Assembly: GCA_030248295.1 (NCBI GenBank)
Contig: JASANH010000863.1
Location: 372,001 to 436,000, forward strand
DNA length: 64,000 nucleotides
Direction of reading: 5' to 3'
DNA from: Mesodorylaimus sp. YZB2_4
Taxonomy: Eukaryota; Nematoda; Enoplea; Dorylaimida; Dorylaimidae
Positions 4,488 to 60,075 of this stretch are shown piece after piece. Made by a program: the position numbers and the translations under genes. The notes under the pieces were generated by a model that worked only from the letters and a program-made list of their open reading frames with translations, had not been told where the DNA came from and searched no databases. Numbering within the stretch: the stretch's first letter is position 1; each line of letters starts with the position of its first letter.

Positions 4488-6323
4488 TCAAGGCGAATTC
4501 ATGTGCCAATCTTTGACCAATTCCTCCGGATTCACTCCGTTCATCGAGGCCGCTTCTTTCCACAAACTGTACAGCTCTGCACTGTTCAATTGCCTGGCAC
4601 TGTGGCTGCTGGTTTCCTCGTCCTGCGGCAGCGCCTGCACGATCAAATCTCCAAACGACGCTTCCGGTGGCGGAACCGCATTCGACGTTGTCTCCTGTTC
4701 TGCTTTTTCTCTCAATTTTTGCCATCTTTCCAACAATGATCGATCGTATTGACTCATTGAGCTTTCACTCAGCTCAAACTCCGCTGCAACGGGGAGCACA
4801 CCGCCTGGTTCTTGAAGACTGCTAGCCTTGCGTATCTTTTCCGCCGATTTCTCTGCTCTTTTTCGTCTTTTTTCTTCGCGTTCTTGATATCGACGCTGGG
4901 CGGTCACAAAAGTCGACGCGGGTTGGGCTGACTTGGCTTGCAATAATTTCTCTTTCAATCGTTGTTTAGGATCAATCGAACTCGCCGAACTGTTCGATTC
5001 GTCCATGGTGCTCTCTTTCAGTTTTGCACTCAACATTTCCACATCGGATGCCGATGATGACGACAATTCGATGACCATCTTTTCTGTAGTTGCCGATTTC
5101 GGAGCAGCCGTCGCCGTGGTATCTGATTGGGCACTAATCGATTGATCGGAAAAACCTTGATCAATCGATTGCTTAGAAACGGCTTGATCCCTCGCCTGAT
5201 CGATCAGTTCGATCGATCGAGATGTTGCGGTATTAATTGTCTCGCCCTGTTCATACTTGGCCGCCTCGCTCAGCATGGCAGCCCTCAACTGTTCGGCATT
5301 CAACGATTCTACGTCCATGCTCAAATCCACAACGCCCGATGCAGTGATCTCCATCGACGGATCGCTATAATCGGCCAAATAAGGATGTGCCAAGGCCTCG
5401 GTGGCACTCAGTCGCTCCCACGGGGCCACACGCAACAAACTGGCCACCATGCTCACGGCCGATGCACCCGCCTTGGGCAGTATGGACGACCAAGGCAGGG
5501 GTTGTTTGGGACCGAGACCATAAATTATCCTCTTGACAATATCCGAGCTGATAGCCCTCATAATTTGGTCTTGTGGTGTTCCTAAATAGCACACGATCAA
5601 TTTCAGTTGACTGATATGATCTTTTCCGGGGAATAGTTGCCTTCGATTCAACATTTCAGCCAGAATGCACCCCACTGACCACATGTCCACTTCCAAAGAA
5701 TAATCCAGCATGGAGAAAAGTAATTCCGGTGCCCTGTACCATCTGGTAGCTACGTACTGAGTCATGAATTGATCCTGTCCAATCGATTGATCACTGTGAT
5801 TATTCAATTTTATACTACGCGCCATACCGAAATCACCAATTTTTAAAAGACAATCGGCATTGACCATTAAATTTGATGGTTTTAAATCGCGATGTATAAT
5901 GCCCGCCGAATGAATATATTTAAGTCCGCGCAAGATTTGATACAGAAAATATTGAATATGCCTTTCGCTAAGTATTTGTTTCGAGTGAATAATATGATGT
6001 AAATCAGTCTGCATCAGATCGAATACAATGTACACATCGCCACTGGCTCGGAATATATCCACAACAGCAACGATATTTTCATGATGAAATTGCTGTAATA
6101 TTTTCACTTCTCGCAATGTCCTTTTTGTCAGTGTAACAGCACCCAAGGCATTAGGTACCTTCTTTATGGCCACTTTCCCTTCTTGCCCCTGTCGACTGTC
6201 CGAGGCTGAGCACACCACTCCGTAAGCACCGGTCCCGATATTCTCAATTGCCGTGTATGGAGTGCCAGATAAATCAAATTTCACATCCAAACTTTTCTTG
6301 TCCAACAATTGCATAGCTTCCAT
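4488..6323 (-). CDS. ERK5-like mitogen-activated protein kinase with TQY loop
   Basis: Intracellular Ser/Thr kinase of the MAPK family, closest by eye to ERK5/MAPK7. The protein is 611 residues from the ATG at 6323; open sequence upstream lacks another ATG. Visible kinase features are the glycine loop GTGAYGVV (30-37), VAIKK (catalytic Lys54), HRD (144-146), DFG (164-166), activation-loop T188-Q189-Y190, then VATRWYRAPE, and the MAPK insert with RRQLFPGK. The tail (about 330-611) is low-complexity and Ser/Gln-rich, with a strongly basic stretch EEKRRKRAEKSAEKIRK that could be a nuclear signal, as in ERK5 tails. ERK5 normally has TEY, so TQY is unusual. The gene has no introns although its neighbours have many, which suggests a retrocopy or intron loss. 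Family assignment is secure; exact orthology is less so. Confidence 0.9.
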   Translation of the reverse strand: MEAMQLLDKKSLDVKFDLSGTPYTAIENIGTGAYGVVCSASDSRQGQEGKVAIKKVPNALGAVTLTKRTLREVKILQQFHHENIVAVVDIFRASGDVYIVFDLMQTDLHHIIHSKQILSERHIQYFLYQILRGLKYIHSAGIIHRDLKPSNLMVNADCLLKIGDFGMARSIKLNNHSDQSIGQDQFMTQYVATRWYRAPELLFSMLDYSLEVDMWSVGCILAEMLNRRQLFPGKDHISQLKLIVCYLGTPQDQIMRAISSDIVKRIIYGLGPKQPLPWSSILPKAGASAVSMVASLLRVAPWERLSATEALAHPYLADYSDPSMEITASGVVDLSMDVESLNAEQLRAAMLSEAAKYEQGETINTATSRSIELIDQARDQAVSKQSIDQGFSDQSISAQSDTTATAAPKSATTEKMVIELSSSSASDVEMLSAKLKESTMDESNSSASSIDPKQRLKEKLLQAKSAQPASTFVTAQRRYQEREEKRRKRAEKSAEKIRKASSLQEPGGVLPVAAEFELSESSMSQYDRSLLERWQKLREKAEQETTSNAVPPPEASFGDLIVQALPQDEETSSHSARQLNSAELYSLWKEAASMNGVNPEELVKDWHMNSP

Positions 6324-7139
6324 TTTTTGATAGAAATGGAGGAAAATATAAACGTGCACGACTGTTTCAGGTTATCGACCTCTCCCAACATTGAAAGTCT
6401 ACATTTATGGTTGCGTAGCCAAAAACCAGATTGCGCAGGCAGGCACTAACGCGCCGAGTCTGGTACAACTTTGTGTACATACGATGGAGTGGTGGCGAGG
6501 GGCATGACCTGCATACAGTATGTGCAATATACATACGCAGTCAAAAAATGCGCATATGAATAAAGAGCGCAACAGGAAAATTTTTTGAATTTCCCGCCAT
6601 TAGGAAATTACCGCTTTACACTGCAAGCTACTTTAATAACCTGAAATTAAACGTTTTACGCAGCTCATTTGCGGTGGCACGTAGCTTGAATGATCTACAC
6701 ACCAACGTCATTGGAAAGCACTGAAGAAAACCAACATGATTTGAAACCTCAGATAGGTCAGAACCCGAGAGCGAGCCGCCAACCCACTCGACTACGATGG
6801 TACTACTTACGAAGGTACCAAGCTACGACTAATCAATGTGTGCGAGCAGTGTAAGGCGCTTTACACTGCACGCACTTGATTGTACTTTTTTATGCATTTT
6901 TTGAATTTCCCGCCTTTCAAATTTTGCCCACCTACCATTCCCAAAGGGTCACCAGTAAATCATCACACATGTCGCAGCCAACTTTACGATACCCTTACAA
7001 CAAAAAACTGAGATGATAGCCAAAGTCAACAAAGTCGATCCGTATCGAACACCAAACGCAAATAAACGAGTGTAATCAATGACGTCAAGGGATAAGACAT
7101 GCCAAGACAGCCTCGCCCATAAAGCAAGTATTCATCGAA
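6324..7139. other. Intergenic region upstream of MAP kinase gene
   Basis: This probably contains the MAP kinase promoter and the 3' UTR of MAGOH. TTGAATTTCCCGCC occurs twice (about 6586 and 6900); TTTCCCGC is an E2F-type core, but the same 14-mer also occurs in repeats near 60955 and 61375, so it may be repeat-derived. A short CTTTACACTGCA motif also occurs twice (about 6611 and 6860). No gene is seen. Confidence 0.4.
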
Positions 7140-52931: not shown

Positions 52932-53195
52932 TTGCAAAAAATTACGCTGATCTATTCGCGCGCTCTTGAAATATGGTCGCTTATTTGGAAGTGGGTCAGA
53001 GAAATTACGAATTGGACAAATTTTGCGGATTGGTCTGTCATTAGTTTTGCAAAAGAAGACACAGAAATTTACGATCGAATGGTCGAAATATATGGCGATG
53101 ATAAACCTAAATTGGCGACAGTGAAAAAGTGGCCATCTTTCTTCAAACATGGGGGAGAATCGAGTGAAGATGACTCAAGATCGATTCATCAATAA
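52932..53195 (+). pseudogene. Mariner-type transposase N-terminal fragment
   Basis: The frame around 53070-53195 reads VEIYGDDKPKLATVKKWPSF then FKHGGESSEDDSRS. This fits the helix-turn-helix of mariner/SETMAR transposases, where VYGxxxxSxxTVxKWxxxFRxGxxSxEDxPRSGRP is usual. The PRSGRP end is altered (SRSIHQ) and a stop follows at once, with no catalytic DDD domain after it. It is a relic of a Tc1/mariner insertion. Confidence 0.65.
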
Positions 53196-53199
53196 TTCA

Positions 53200-54325
53200 T
53201 CGATGGGAGAGGGATGTGCTCTAGGAGTGTTTGTCAAGAATGCTTTGTGTCAAAGAGTTAGACCGAGAGAACTTGGCCTTTTGCATGTAACTCTCTCCGA
53301 AAAATCTCTGATTGACCGTCGATGACACACGTGCGATACATGGCCCCACCCCTTGCTGTGGTTTCGGCATAACTAATTTGCTTGCTATTATCAGCACATT
53401 CCTCGACAGATGCTGCATGACCGCGCCAGATGTGATAGGTATTTATGTGACTGCAAGAAGGTACATTGAACAGAGGTCAGGTTGCTCTTGAGCTTGGAGT
53501 CTTTCGTAGGACTTCCAGTCCGTTCCAGTGCTCTTCAAAAGTCGAGGCGAGTTTCAGAATTTCACCCCGAGGATTTCAGACTTGGGCGCACGCACTGCAC
53601 ACCATCTCTACTGTGGATGTTTCGCGTTGCTTTAGCTAGCTTGCACACCATGCTACCCACGACGCTAACCTCTGAATGTGGACCTTCTATCATTCACCAC
53701 CACCCCCCTCTAGTTAGGCGTGGTGAGAATCCAGGTCCGACAATGGGTTCACAGTTCGACCCAAGCCCAACCCAAACATTTTGAAGTCAAACCCCTAGTG
53801 TTAATATGAACTTAAAAAAGATATACAGTAAATATGATTTTAGATACTTATCTATGCAAGTCCCACAAAGATATAAATATACAGTAGATATGAATAGCCA
53901 AATCATATATATACATTTGAGACGTAGATTTCTGAAAGCCCACAAACTCCAATTATTTGATCTGAATCTGAAGAAATTTGAGCCTAAATCAAAAAGATTT
54001 TTCACTCCTCCAATACACGGCGGGTTCTCATTGGCTGCGGCCGCCGATCAAACCGAGCAAGCCGCATTGGCCACATATTTTACAGTACAATTTAGCTTCG
54101 TTCACATTAGAACTGCAGAAGCGGAGGAGGAATGCAGGGGACTGCTGCTTCAACGATTAAAAAAACGCGACAGAAAAACGCTTTTTCGTTTATACTGTAG
54201 ATCAGCTTGTCGTGAATCAAATTACGTTGCTGCGTCACAAAAAATAGCTAAGAATTCCGAAATGATATTTCATTTGCACGTAAACGCCTGTTTTGTAAGC
54301 GTGATTATGCCCCAGAAAAATTCAG
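53200..54325. other. Intergenic, no gene called
   Basis: A long open stretch at 53806-54423 has no recognisable domain, runs across the TATA box and signal-peptide start of the next gene, and looks like chance. Several TACAGTA heptamers are present. Nothing else is seen. Confidence 0.4.
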
Positions 54326-54413: not shown

Positions 54414-55192
54414 ATGGCTCTGACCAAGATTCTGATCACGTTTTTCTGCTTGGCAACTGCTGCTGTGGCATTAGTCAGTCCAAGTGAACGAGAAGATGAG
54501 CAGGTTTTGGTACAGAGTGAAGGTGAATATCACACAGACTGTATTCGTAGATTGAGCGTGAGAGGAAACGTTTAACGTCTAAACGTAAAGAAGGTACCTA
54601 CAAAAATGTAACTGAATCAGTGGCCGGGTGACTTTGTTAGGTGAACCCAAACTGGTCCAAACTAAGGACGTCTCGGTCAGTGAGCGATGCAGCTGAGGTG
54701 GAGGCGATGACCACATGATGGGCGGTGGTATGGGTGGCGGCTGGGGACGCATCCAACGCGAAGTGGAGCCGGCTCAACGCACCAAGCGATGCATGAATCG
54801 AAAACGGGAGCTGCAACTGGTTGGACGTGCCGACAGCGCCGACTTCGAGCCCAGCACCGACAAGCGCAAGTCCCGCACCAAGCGCGGATGCTGCTGCTGC
54901 TGCAAATGCTGTTGTTGCTGTTGCTGCTGTTGCTGCTGTTGCTGCTGCTGTTGTTGTTGTTGCTGCTGCTGTTGTTGCAAGTGCTGCTGCTGCTGCGGCA
55001 AGCGCGCCTTGGCTCAACGTGCCGCTCAAATCGCCAAGCAACAAATGTTCCTCCAACGCGACGCCGAGGTCAGCCGCCAACAACGCTGCATGCAAGGACG
55101 CAGTGCTGAGAAGAAAATGACCAAGCGGTGCGGCGGTATGGGCGGTGATATGGGAGGACATGGCATGGGCGGTGGATGCAAACGAGCCAAAA
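54414..55192 (+). pseudogene. Poly-cysteine secreted precursor, copy 1 (broken)
   Basis: Tandem paralog of the gene at 57619. Exon 1 (54414-54522) encodes a signal peptide, MALTKILITFFCLATAAVAL, then SPSERED. Exon 2 begins at 54641 after an AG acceptor. An in-frame TGA at 54694-54696 replaces the TGT (Cys) of copy 2, ending the protein 18 codons into exon 2. The normal stop (TAA in copy 2) is AAA here at about 55190, so the frame would run on. The rest of exon 2 is almost identical to copy 2, including 24 Cys between two Lys, flanked by C5 on each side. If TGA were read as selenocysteine the protein could still be made, but no evidence supports that. The TATA box and splice sites remain intact, so it may still be transcribed. 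Confidence 0.8.
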
Positions 55193-56088
55193 CATGGGGG
55201 TTTCTGTATTTATATTTTTGTGTTATCTTTCATTTCAGTTTATTCGAGATCCTAATATTGTGAAAGTTTATGAACAGTTCATGGTACAGTTTGCAAAATC
55301 AATATTTCAGGACCCCTATTGCTGGTCGATTCACGCATTTGCAGCTACTTCTCTTGTTAAAGATGCGCCTGCTTTATAAGCCTCTATAAAAAAGTAAAAA
55401 TTAGATCAGCAGAAAGGTGCATTTATGGACCAGTCGACTCGTGTTCATAAGGCAAAGTATGATACCCAGGTGCGTTGAGGAAAAAGTTTAACAGGCATGT
55501 TTTAGGCCGTATATTTATAGTGCCTGCGTACTATAAGTGCTCTTTGCCTGGGATCCTTTTCGCAAGAAGGATACCGATGAACTTGAGCGAGCTCAACTTT
55601 GTAGTTTAGCACATCACAGCCGAATCGGGTTGGATTGGATCGGGTAATGGGAAATACTCGTATATGTAACTTTGTTTGGCAATCAATAGCGAATCAACTT
55701 TTTTGCATCAACTTCCCATGATAAGCACACAAAATTTATTATCATGGTGCCATGGCACAAGCAGCTCCCTCTCACGTCTTTCCCACACGTCTCATCATGG
55801 ATCTACTGTACTTTACACGCTGATGAAGTATAGTAAGAAAGATCCACGCTGCTCATAAATGAGTGTAACATGACTTAAAATTTTTTATAAAAAGTGATAT
55901 TTCCACTTTGTTTCCATTCCACTGCCCGCTAATATTCTTGCGTCCGACTCCAAACTATGTGCTAAATCTGAGTCATCTATGTTTTCTCTAGTCTCATACA
56001 ACGATAACGACAAGATGCCTTAAACTCTGAGCAGAAAATGGAAGCATCATTGCAGAATATTGATCTCGTCTCATTGATTACACAAGAG

Positions 56089-56877: not shown

Positions 56878-57528
56878 AGAGAAAATAATTGCCAATTTAT
56901 GAGTTCCTTAGCCCCGAGTGCGCTGCATAGTGCATAGTGCTTTGAAGATTTTAAAAATGCTTTTTACCAAGTTTCGATAAAGGATAAACAAATTTCGATA
57001 ACTGCTTTTTACAGATACGCTTGATGAACAGTGCGTGGATTGGTTTTGGGCCGTTTTCACTATACACCGCCACAACCATGCTGGGACAGGATATATGCCG
57101 CACCCTGTACTTTCTTAGCATATCTTTTTGGACAGTGGTAATGACTCTGCGACGTCTGCGCTAGTAGTGCAGAACAAAAACAGAGGAGGTCCCCTAATCA
57201 CTGGACACATATATGCGATAAACATGCCAGTAATGGCGTCGAAGACAAGTATTGTGTGGCAATGCCCTCTGTTTCAAAAATATCGAGTCACGACCCTGAG
57301 GATATTATTTTAGGCAGCCATTTAGTGATGTACGATTGTTTGTTTCATGTGCAGCGCCAAATTAATTTCCGAATACAGCTAAGCCCATACAAACGCTTCC
57401 ATAATCTGAAGCTATCGTGGAAAAACGCCTACTGGAAATAATAAATCATGAAAAATCGGTGACATGAGACATTATTTGCACAGCAAGGCGCATGCTTGCC
57501 AAGCGTGACCATTTCTGGCAAAAAATTG

Positions 57529-57536
57529 TATATAAG
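57529..57536 (+). promoter_or_regulatory. TATA box of poly-Cys copy 2
   Basis: TATATAAG, 90 bases before the start codon, matching the position of the box in copy 1. Confidence 0.75.
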
Positions 57537-57618
57537 GGCATGGATACCAATGACCAAATCATTCAATTGCAGCCAGCATTCAGTGTTTGCAGCACCCCAA
57601 CCATCGCCACAATCGGAA

Positions 57619-58076
57619 ATGGCCTCGAACAAGCTCTTGATCGTCCTCTTCTGCTTGTCGACGGCTGCTGTGACATTGGCCCGTCCAGCTGATGAGCACG
57701 AAAGGATGGACGGTAGGTGCCCGATTCTTGCATATGACTGGACGTTAGAGTCTTAAAAGTTCTTCTTTAGCCGAATCCAAACTGGTACAAGCGAAGGACG
57801 TGTCGGTCAGCAAGCGATGCAGCTGTGGTGGAGGCGATGACCACACTATGGGCGGTGGTATGGGTGGCGGCTGGGGACGCATCCAACGCGAAGTGGAGTC
57901 GGCTCAACGCCCCAAGCGATGCATGAATGGAAAACGGGAGCTGCAATTGGTTGGACGTGCCGACAGCGCCGACTTCGAGCCCAGCACCGACAAGCGCATG
58001 TCCCGCACCAAGCGCGGATGCTGCTGCTGCTGCAAATGCTGTTGTTGCTGTTGCTGTTGCTGCTGCTGCTGCTGCT

Positions 58077-58107
<31 letters not shown>

Positions 58108-58327
58108 TTGTTGCAAGTGCTGCTGCTGCTGCGGCAAGCGCGCCTTGGCTCAACGTGCCGCTCAAATCGCCAAGCAACAAATGTTCCTCCAACGCGACGC
58201 CGAGGTCAGCCGCCAACAACGCTGCATGCAAGGACGCAGTGCTGAAAAGAGAATGACCAAGCGGTGCGGCGGTATGGGCGGTGATATGGGAGGACATGGC
58301 ATGGGCGGTGGATGCAAACGAGCCTAA
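57619..58327 (+). CDS. Poly-cysteine secreted prepropeptide-like protein, copy 2
   Basis: Two exons (57619-57712 and 57771-58327, intron 58 bases) encode 216 residues. Exon 1 is a signal peptide (MASNKLLIVLFCLSTAAVTL) followed by ARPADEHERMD. Exon 2 begins AESKLVQAKDVSVSKRCSCG, then a Gly/Met-rich stretch (MGGGMGGGWGR), several dibasic sites (SKR, PKR, GKR, DKR, TKR) and a block of Cys: five Cys, Lys, 26 Cys, Lys, five Cys, then GKR. A Gln/Ala/Arg-rich helix (ALAQRAAQIAKQQ) follows, then MTKR and a Gly/Met/Cys tail ending CKRA. KR sites bracket the Cys block and GKR is a classic amidation signal, so processing as in a neuropeptide or defence-peptide precursor is possible; a metal-binding or structural cuticle/silk role is the alternative. 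No known family comes to mind. Confidence 0.8.
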
Positions 58328-58527
58328 ACAGTGATGCCTTCTAGGCCACAGGATTTTGATATGATTTTGACTGTGTAGTTTATGACCCCGTTTTGACTGC
58401 AAGTTTAATTAAACAGGTAGCAGCAAGATCTGGTTCATGCCTGAGTCAGTTGTTGACGTTGTTAAGGTGAGGTCGGAGGACATCGTCGTCATTGCCACCC
58501 CAATGCGTCGTCATGGAGAGCGTATAT

Positions 58528-58680
58528 AGCGTTAACGATATCGATAACGATAACGATATCATGTCGTTAACGACATCTTTTCAACGTCGTTAACGAAACG
58601 ATAACGATAACGATATTTTTTCAAATAACGGTAACGATAACGATATTCGTCCAAAAAACGATATGACATCGTTAATTATA
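58528..58680. repeat. AACGATAACGATATC repeat cluster, left
   Basis: Many overlapping units of GTTAACGATATC and AACGATAACGATAT, each partly palindromic. A related cluster lies at 59966-60075. The two may be the subterminal regions of one element about 1.5 kb long. Confidence 0.7.
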
Positions 58681-59605: not shown

Positions 59606-59965
59606 CTAGTGCAATGGTGGACAATGATGCAAGGTGATAGGCCATTAGGGCAAATAGCCAAAGCCAGCAAGCTAGATTCTATAAATGGGGGTCCTGGCCG
59701 CGATTTGGTTCAGGAAGCAGGACCCAATTTGTGCGGCTGCAATCTGAACAGGGGAGCATCATCTGGACAAGGCGGGGGCTGACCAAGTGGCACTAACGGG
59801 TGGTCCCCCAAATGGATACAGTTGACTGACAGACCTCCTTGGAGGCGGCCAGTCCACTGTTTCTCTCCAGTGCTAATTGTCAGAGTCCAGAGGAACTCGA
59901 CAGTACTCCCGCCAGACTCCCAGCTCTAACAAGTAAGCGGCAACATTGCGTCTTTACAGCGAAAA

Positions 59966-60075
59966 AATAACGATATTAACGCGTTAACGATATCTTTTGA
60001 GAAACCATTAACGATTAATGATATCGATATTTTTTGGGATATCGTTAACGAACGATAACGATATCGTTTTCCTGT
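59966..60075. repeat. AACGATAACGATATC repeat cluster, right
   Basis: GTTAACGATATC, AACGATTAATGATATCGATA and GTTAACGAACGATAACGATA follow one another. The motifs are the same as at 58528-58680. Confidence 0.7.

Follow-up and report, generated by a model that had tools for sequence, protein, structure and literature searches.

Metallothioneins are cytosolic proteins of very high cysteine content, in which spaced cysteines form CC and CXC patterns with Lys spacers. The Trichuris protein p43 is a relative of the Trichinella protein Ts-PCHTP. In silkmoths, (CG)n stretches are typical of the Hc chorion proteins, among which we know of none with a core framed by Lys-Arg (KR) sites or with pure poly-Cys runs. 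Silkmoth chorion genes are arranged in divergent pairs, and cross-linking of the eggshell is attributed to the high-cysteine proteins made late (PMC4639761, in part). The nematode literature on 'poly-cysteine', judged by titles and the starts of abstracts, mostly concerns Trichinella and Trichuris proteins. As described in part of PMC2954182, Ts-PCHTP has 8.8% Cys at spaced, conserved positions in two homologous domains, with no Cys homopolymer. Artificial poly-Cys in C. elegans forms aggregates, yet (Cys)37 is only weakly toxic (PMC7117740, in part); nematode cells can thus tolerate a tract of this kind.

We analyzed a predicted gene in a 64,000-nucleotide window (the whole stretch of DNA under study, G000:C49:372001-436000) of a 145 Mb nematode genome in 1067 contigs, and we are highly confident that it encodes a real, secreted, and selected poly-Cys protein. 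Its architecture, a predicted signal peptide and KR sites, is of a known kind; what would be new is the product. Neuropeptide precursors and other proproteins processed at dibasic residues likewise have a signal peptide, KR sites, and Gly-Lys-Arg (GKR), but here the core is a Cys homopolymer, and no family match was found. The family resembles metallothioneins in its richness in Cys, its CC/CXC patterns, and its Lys spacers, although there was no Pfam match. Poly-Cys from RAN translation of CAG/CTG repeats is of similar length, but stems from disease repeats or artificial constructs in the part of PMC7117740 consulted, whereas the product considered here is that of a conserved predicted gene with a signal peptide. 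Ts-PCHTP is likewise a secretory nematode protein, is named poly-cysteine, and is reported to bind metal (PMC2954182, in part). We rejected a relationship to it because its two spaced-Cys domains, compared by eye with the consensus in the same partial source, are not found in our precursors.

The gene is predicted to have two exons between 57619 and 58327 on the forward strand, with the ATG at 57619 read directly and a product of 216 aa. The promoter and 5'UTR (57470-57618, +) were assigned by reading the sequence and by comparison across the family, and contain a TTTGC element at 57475 (+) and a TATA box, TATATAAGG, at 57529 (+), 90 nt before the ATG. Exon 1 (57619-57712, +; 94 nt) would encode the signal peptide MASNKLLIVLFCLSTAAVTLA and the start of the propeptide. 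A splice-model script placed a 58 nt, phase-1 GT-AG intron (GTAGGT...TTCTTTAG) at 57713-57770 (+). Exon 2 (57771-58327, +) encodes KR-separated propeptides, the poly-Cys core, a C-terminal Gly/Met/His peptide, and the stop. Its segments run ..VSVSKR / CSCGGGDDHTMGGGMGGGWGRIQREVESAQRPKR / CMNGKR / ELQLVGRADSADFEPSTDKR / MSRTKR / G-C5-K-C26-K-C5-GKR / ALAQRAAQIAKQQMFLQRDAEVSRQQRCMQGRSAEKR / MTKR / CGGMGGDMGGHGMGGGCKR / A, and the KR sites of the whole protein are, in order, SKR, PKR, (N)GKR, DKR, (R)TKR, the GKR that closes G-C5-K-C26-K-C5, EKR, MTKR, and CKR. On the N side of the core, the Lys-Arg of RTKR is followed by Gly (58010-58018, +). The C5-K-C26-K-C5 tract (58019-58132, +) comprises 38 codons, 36 for Cys (TGC/TGT) and two for Lys (AAA/AAG), with a longest Cys run of 26; Tandem Repeats Finder returned the identical span. 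A Gly-Lys-Arg at 58133-58141 (+) is a likely cleavage site and possible amidation signal. A sequence-only reading of this DNA had described the layout of the core, the KR sites, and the 58 nt intron, and direct reading showed that description to be exact. Interspersed repeats in which GATAACGATATCGTTAAC-like words abound lie just downstream of the gene, at 58510-58670 and 59960-60060.

When the exon-2 protein was searched against its own genome, 27 rows were returned, 19 of which are close copies (L001-L019); 18 of these are intact, counting the window gene (L001) and dropping the disrupted copy L002. The latter lies 3 kb upstream of the window gene (54414-55263, +) and has a C5-K-C24-K-C5 tract; its exon 2 is interrupted by an in-frame TGA and lacks the stop where the homologous reading frame ends. 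The window gene is thus a member of a multigene family of predicted secreted precursors, about two dozen related genes with near-pure core runs of 22 to 41 Cys and flanks that include ELQLVGRADSADFEP... and ALAQRAAQIAK.... For all 18 intact copies, a script that applied a hydropathy filter to possible exons predicted a candidate signal-peptide exon upstream of exon 2, together with a TATA box and a phase-1 GT-AG intron, the introns ranging over 43-257 nt; splice sites were called from the sequence with a scoring that favors phase 1, and L007 has a second donor that looks equally good by eye. The signal peptide claimed earlier for the window gene therefore recurs, as a candidate exon, throughout the intact close copies. 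Tract layouts among the 18 were C5-K-C24-K-C5 (seven copies), C36 (three), C5-K-C27 (two), and, once each, C5-K-C26-K-C5, C6-K-C25-K-C5, C5-K-C22-K-C5, C5-K-C17-K-C5-K-C5, C41, and C26. Where they were compared, the exon-2 proteins of L015 and L016 are identical.

Beyond this genome, no relative was found at E 0.001 among 5.8 billion proteins, either in the protein search (79 candidates) or with an 11-sequence profile (7995 candidates sharing most words scored), and Pfam gave no match for the two ORFs of the window gene and none at E 0.1 for 11 members, the metallothionein profile included; such searches can miss low-complexity relatives. Homology to chorion proteins was likewise absent from Pfam and from protein matches at E 0.001. 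The profile produced seven weak hits (E 0.023 to 0.71), which were set aside as apparently fortuitous matches to Cys-rich segments of unrelated proteins (six inspected; P0126 excepted). Against solved structures, the best profile hit had E 0.9 and the best single-sequence hit E 0.18. One of the 11 members matched an IgA-binding model of NCBIfam (E 0.0014), which we took as compositional. In the literature searched, judged by titles and the starts of abstracts, no Cys homopolymer in a conserved gene came up as a counterpart, and no poly-Cys lengths are given in the consulted parts of the homorepeat papers PMC6219797 and PMC3374290. The locus had been proposed as an undescribed system, and no described relative emerged from the protein search at E 0.001, Pfam, or the literature searched.

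Ten more divergent members share a cysteine-dominated core in the same frame. Seven came from the exon-2 protein search (C164, C118, C9, three at C46, and C2:864830) and three from searches with divergent queries (C2:867477, C2:736931, and C2:1612803). Layouts close to that of the window gene occur at C118 (C5-K-C18-K-C5), C9 (C6-K-C11-K-C5), and C46 (C4-K-C31/32-K-C4), while other cores are impure, with CCD/CCK units, (CG)n, or CCSCC. The C164 core alternates CCD and CCK units and holds 60 Cys; C2:864830 has two Cys cores interrupted by Ser, Gly, and His; C2:867477 and C2:736931 have long (CG)n cores; and C2:1612803 has several RCCG peptides followed by a run of 31 Cys. Candidate signal peptides were found upstream of the C118, C9, C46, C2:864830, and C2:867477 members, and in frame for C164. 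The Cys share of a core ranges from roughly 57% to 100%. CCD/CCK, (CG)n, and CCSCC cores occupy the same frame; the family keeps Cys density between predicted cleavage sites rather than one DNA repeat or motif.

The sites at which the core would be released are also kept. The window protein has nine KR sites. Six of them are KR in every one of the 18 intact copies and three in 17 of 18, with the KR before the tract and the GKR after it both among the invariant ones. The sequence-only reading had named relatives lacking these flanking sites as evidence that would count against it, and none was seen among the 18 intact copies; divergent members vary. In these, KR precedes the tract and Gly with basic residues follows in variable form: GKR in L029, L030, both L034 tracts, L063, and L064; GRR in L031; GRKR in the three C46 copies; and GKKY in L053. 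These post-tract sites were established by reading each member directly, as the tract pattern search itself required Gly and basic residues. Sequence evidence thus supports well a secreted, excised poly-Cys peptide. Excision of the core, taken on its own, is probable, and C-terminal amidation of the predicted product is plausible. The genome has 25 exon rows matching PHM-type monooxygenases, several with stops since introns were ignored, and seven rows matching the convertase P-domain. As a separate observation, matches to PHM-type copper monooxygenases were clustered on contigs C57 and C341 (G000), which suggests an expanded family.

Promoter elements recur across the family. Twenty-two members have a TATA box 69-109 nt upstream of the ATG, and one more, L031, has one at -54 only; these 23 include the disrupted L002 and leave out L053 and L064 as well as four near duplicates (L016, L019, L033, and the second of the L032 copies at C46). 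Within 80 nt upstream of the TATA box, TTTGC was present in 13 of 22 members (300 shuffles: mean 1.4, maximum 5) and GCATGAC in six (shuffles: mean 0.06, maximum 1), although the shuffles preserve base composition only and the relatedness of the copies inflates both counts. Thirteen of the 15 TTTGC occurrences fall at -48 to -57, and all six GCATGAC at -26 to -28. From these elements we infer that the family genes are co-regulated, and the TATA boxes lead us to guess at strong expression. A transposable element was considered as the source of the copies and rejected: in 152 of 171 locus pairs, similarity is confined to locus positions 1000-2300, which span the gene and a short stretch around it, in loci extending about 1.5 kb to each side. 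The 19 pairs with wider similarity consist of 15 between members of head-to-head pairs and four that involve L014. Partner blocks align between the three head-to-head gene pairs (C109, C174, and C247); the paired genes at C41 and C46 lie tail to tail, and the remaining copies show no head-to-head pairing. The silkmoth HcA/HcB chorion genes are similar in being a secreted, Cys-rich multigene family with head-to-head pairs, although here only those three pairs have this arrangement and C41/C46 do not. Two members here have (CG)n cores. The chorion proteins differ in being from an insect, and the poly-Cys precursors gave no match to their family.

We propose that a subtilisin-like convertase would cut the precursor at (R)xKR and GKR, yielding, in equal numbers, the poly-Cys peptide and Cys-capped Gly/Met/His-rich peptides of the types CSCGGGDDHHMGMGGMGGGWGR and CGGMGGDMGGHGMGGGC; the Gly that remains from GKR could be converted to an amide. 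The poly-Cys peptide would act by its number of thiols and not by a fold, as a multivalent thiol that cross-links and hardens secreted extracellular material through disulfide exchange. Candidate materials are a gland secretion, the eggshell, or a cuticle layer, in which the Gly-rich, Cys-capped peptides could serve as matrix partners. We tentatively prefer this role as a multi-thiol cross-linker of a secreted matrix over a secreted metal-thiolate peptide, its close rival, because the family is large and shares promoter elements, the Gly-rich peptides offer partners, some genes are paired in a chorion-like manner, and Cys numbers tend to be even. Even numbers, found in 17 of 18 close copies, would fit paired thiols. 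Among 14 hand-picked tract types, 11 were even and three odd (P 0.03), and with four interrupted cores added, two of them odd, 13 of 18 were even (P about 0.05, calculated by hand). The pattern is a weak hint for cross-linking, since the types were hand-picked, paralogues do not count as independent observations, and odd numbers occur in three of the ten divergent tracts. Taken more broadly, we see an even chance that the family represents a new animal secretory product: an excised, possibly amidated, foldless Cys homopolymer of 26-41 residues, acting by its number of thiols, from a co-regulated nematode family that would be either an extracellular curing agent or a soft-metal sponge. This would offer a setting in which to test how the secretory pathway handles 36 adjacent thiols and whether disulfides or metal clusters are the end state, and whether nature has a poly-thiol cross-linker that materials chemists could copy.

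A possible, somewhat less probable reading is that the peptide is metallothionein-like but secreted, with a core that forms thiolate clusters around Cu(I), Zn(II), or another soft metal, Met/His/Gly peptides as secondary ligands, and secretion serving to sequester or deliver the metal. The Cys share of the cores is consistent with this, as are the CCD/CCK and CCSCC cores in related precursors and the HHM and MGMGGM elements that adjoin the core on its flanks; His, Met, and Lys/Asp spacers could all indicate metals. The secreted nematode protein Ts-PCHTP binds Fe, Ni, and Zn according to part of PMC2954182, though its Cys layout is different. The composition and length variation tolerated in the family fits metal binding as well as it fits cross-linking. 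Against metal binding, the main clade is without metallothionein-type spacing and Pfam gave no match. Free thiols are also hard to keep reduced within the secretory path.

It is rather improbable that the precursors instead serve amidated signaling or antimicrobial peptides, with the short C-G-rich GKR peptides as the active products and poly-Cys as one product of several. The signal peptide, the many KR sites, and Gly before KR would suit such precursors. Three C46 precursors (L032, L033) also look like those of signaling peptides, as their poly-Cys core is preceded by CGGGGGGCHRAARDAEYSRNAR repeats and repeated CxGGGxWGKR peptides, and C2:1612803 has its RCCG units. Several similar peptides between dibasic sites were seen in the C46 and C2:1612803 members only. 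In an alignment of 11 members, however, the short peptides differ or are absent while the Cys core stays.

We also weighed whether the tract could be a functionless mutational by-product, a CTG/CAG-type triplet repeat that expanded within a gene family and was tolerated. Tract length is indeed variable: the central run is 32 versus 31 Cys among the C46 copies, and L018 and L019, recent inverted duplicates lying head to head on C174, have nearly identical exon-2 flanks but 41 versus 26 Cys, a difference of 15 codons that may reflect a recent length change or an assembly error in the repeat. Substitutions tell against a by-product. Across all 18 copies, the tracts consist of 613 TGY and 25 Lys codons and no others, with a pooled pN/pS of 0.027. 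Pairwise differences in these tracts of unlike layout number 1987 at codon position 3, against 133 at position 1 and 133 at position 2; given this codon content, the differences at positions 1 and 2 come from columns in which Cys in one layout is aligned with Lys in another. Seven copies share the layout C5-K-C24-K-C5, and among them 15 of 36 codon columns vary, with 120 synonymous and 0 non-synonymous pairwise differences. Parsimony on the flank tree gave 22 third-position changes and 0 at positions 1-2, a result with probability 3e-11 if one third of random TGY changes were silent (a generous case), although independent silent events may be fewer because slippage shifts TGT/TGC blocks and gene conversion could occur. 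Alternating CCD/CCK and (CG)n cores, moreover, are not obtainable from a TGC repeat. In the flanks, median dN/dS (pairwise Nei-Gojobori) was 0.108 on the 5' side (142 of 153 pairs) and 0.110 on the 3' side (151 of 153), leaving out pairs with dS <=0.05 or saturated, and third positions accounted for 4099 of 6699 differences 5' and 2947 of 4637 differences 3', which indicates that the Cys frame is the coding frame. Purifying selection on the poly-Cys tract is well supported by these substitution patterns, and the by-product explanation is very unlikely. Chance occurrence of the tract was rejected as well, given the 18 intact copies and the variation confined to third positions in the seven of equal layout. 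The possibility, raised alongside the original claim of a protein-coding gene, that the tract is an unstable untranslated repeat is contradicted by the strong codon-position bias of flanks and tract, which bears out coding status; tract length proved labile in one recent pair, L018/L019. That another frame or strand is the coding one, an idea that arises because TGY wobble is also silent when read as YTG (Leu) or CAR (Gln) and because the poly-Leu and poly-Gln frames are open through the tract, is scarcely credible, since differences in both flanks cluster at third positions of the Cys frame and it is this frame that joins the predicted signal-peptide exon, albeit in an exon search made for the Cys frame.

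Other loci were noticed in passing. A short stretch at 53060-53200 (+) of the window presumably resembles the helix-turn-helix region of a mariner transposase. The window also contains a MAP kinase gene at 4488-6371 (-), open in one frame over 627 codons; its activation motif is TQY, and its C-terminal extension is long. Among the best 120 of its 7743 matches, a bird and several nematodes are near the top; nematodes give the highest identities over the kinase part in this set (58% to Onchocerca and Steinernema), and Plectus sambesii (42% identity) and two others (48% and 45%) cover 96% of the query. An 18S sequence from the genome looks like that of a chromadorean nematode, and the host may stand not far from Plectida. 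Two 18S rRNA loci, L069 and L070, differ from each other, with 94-98% identity over the aligned parts; both are truncated at the 5' end of the locus, which makes their Rfam scores no guide to the intact one.
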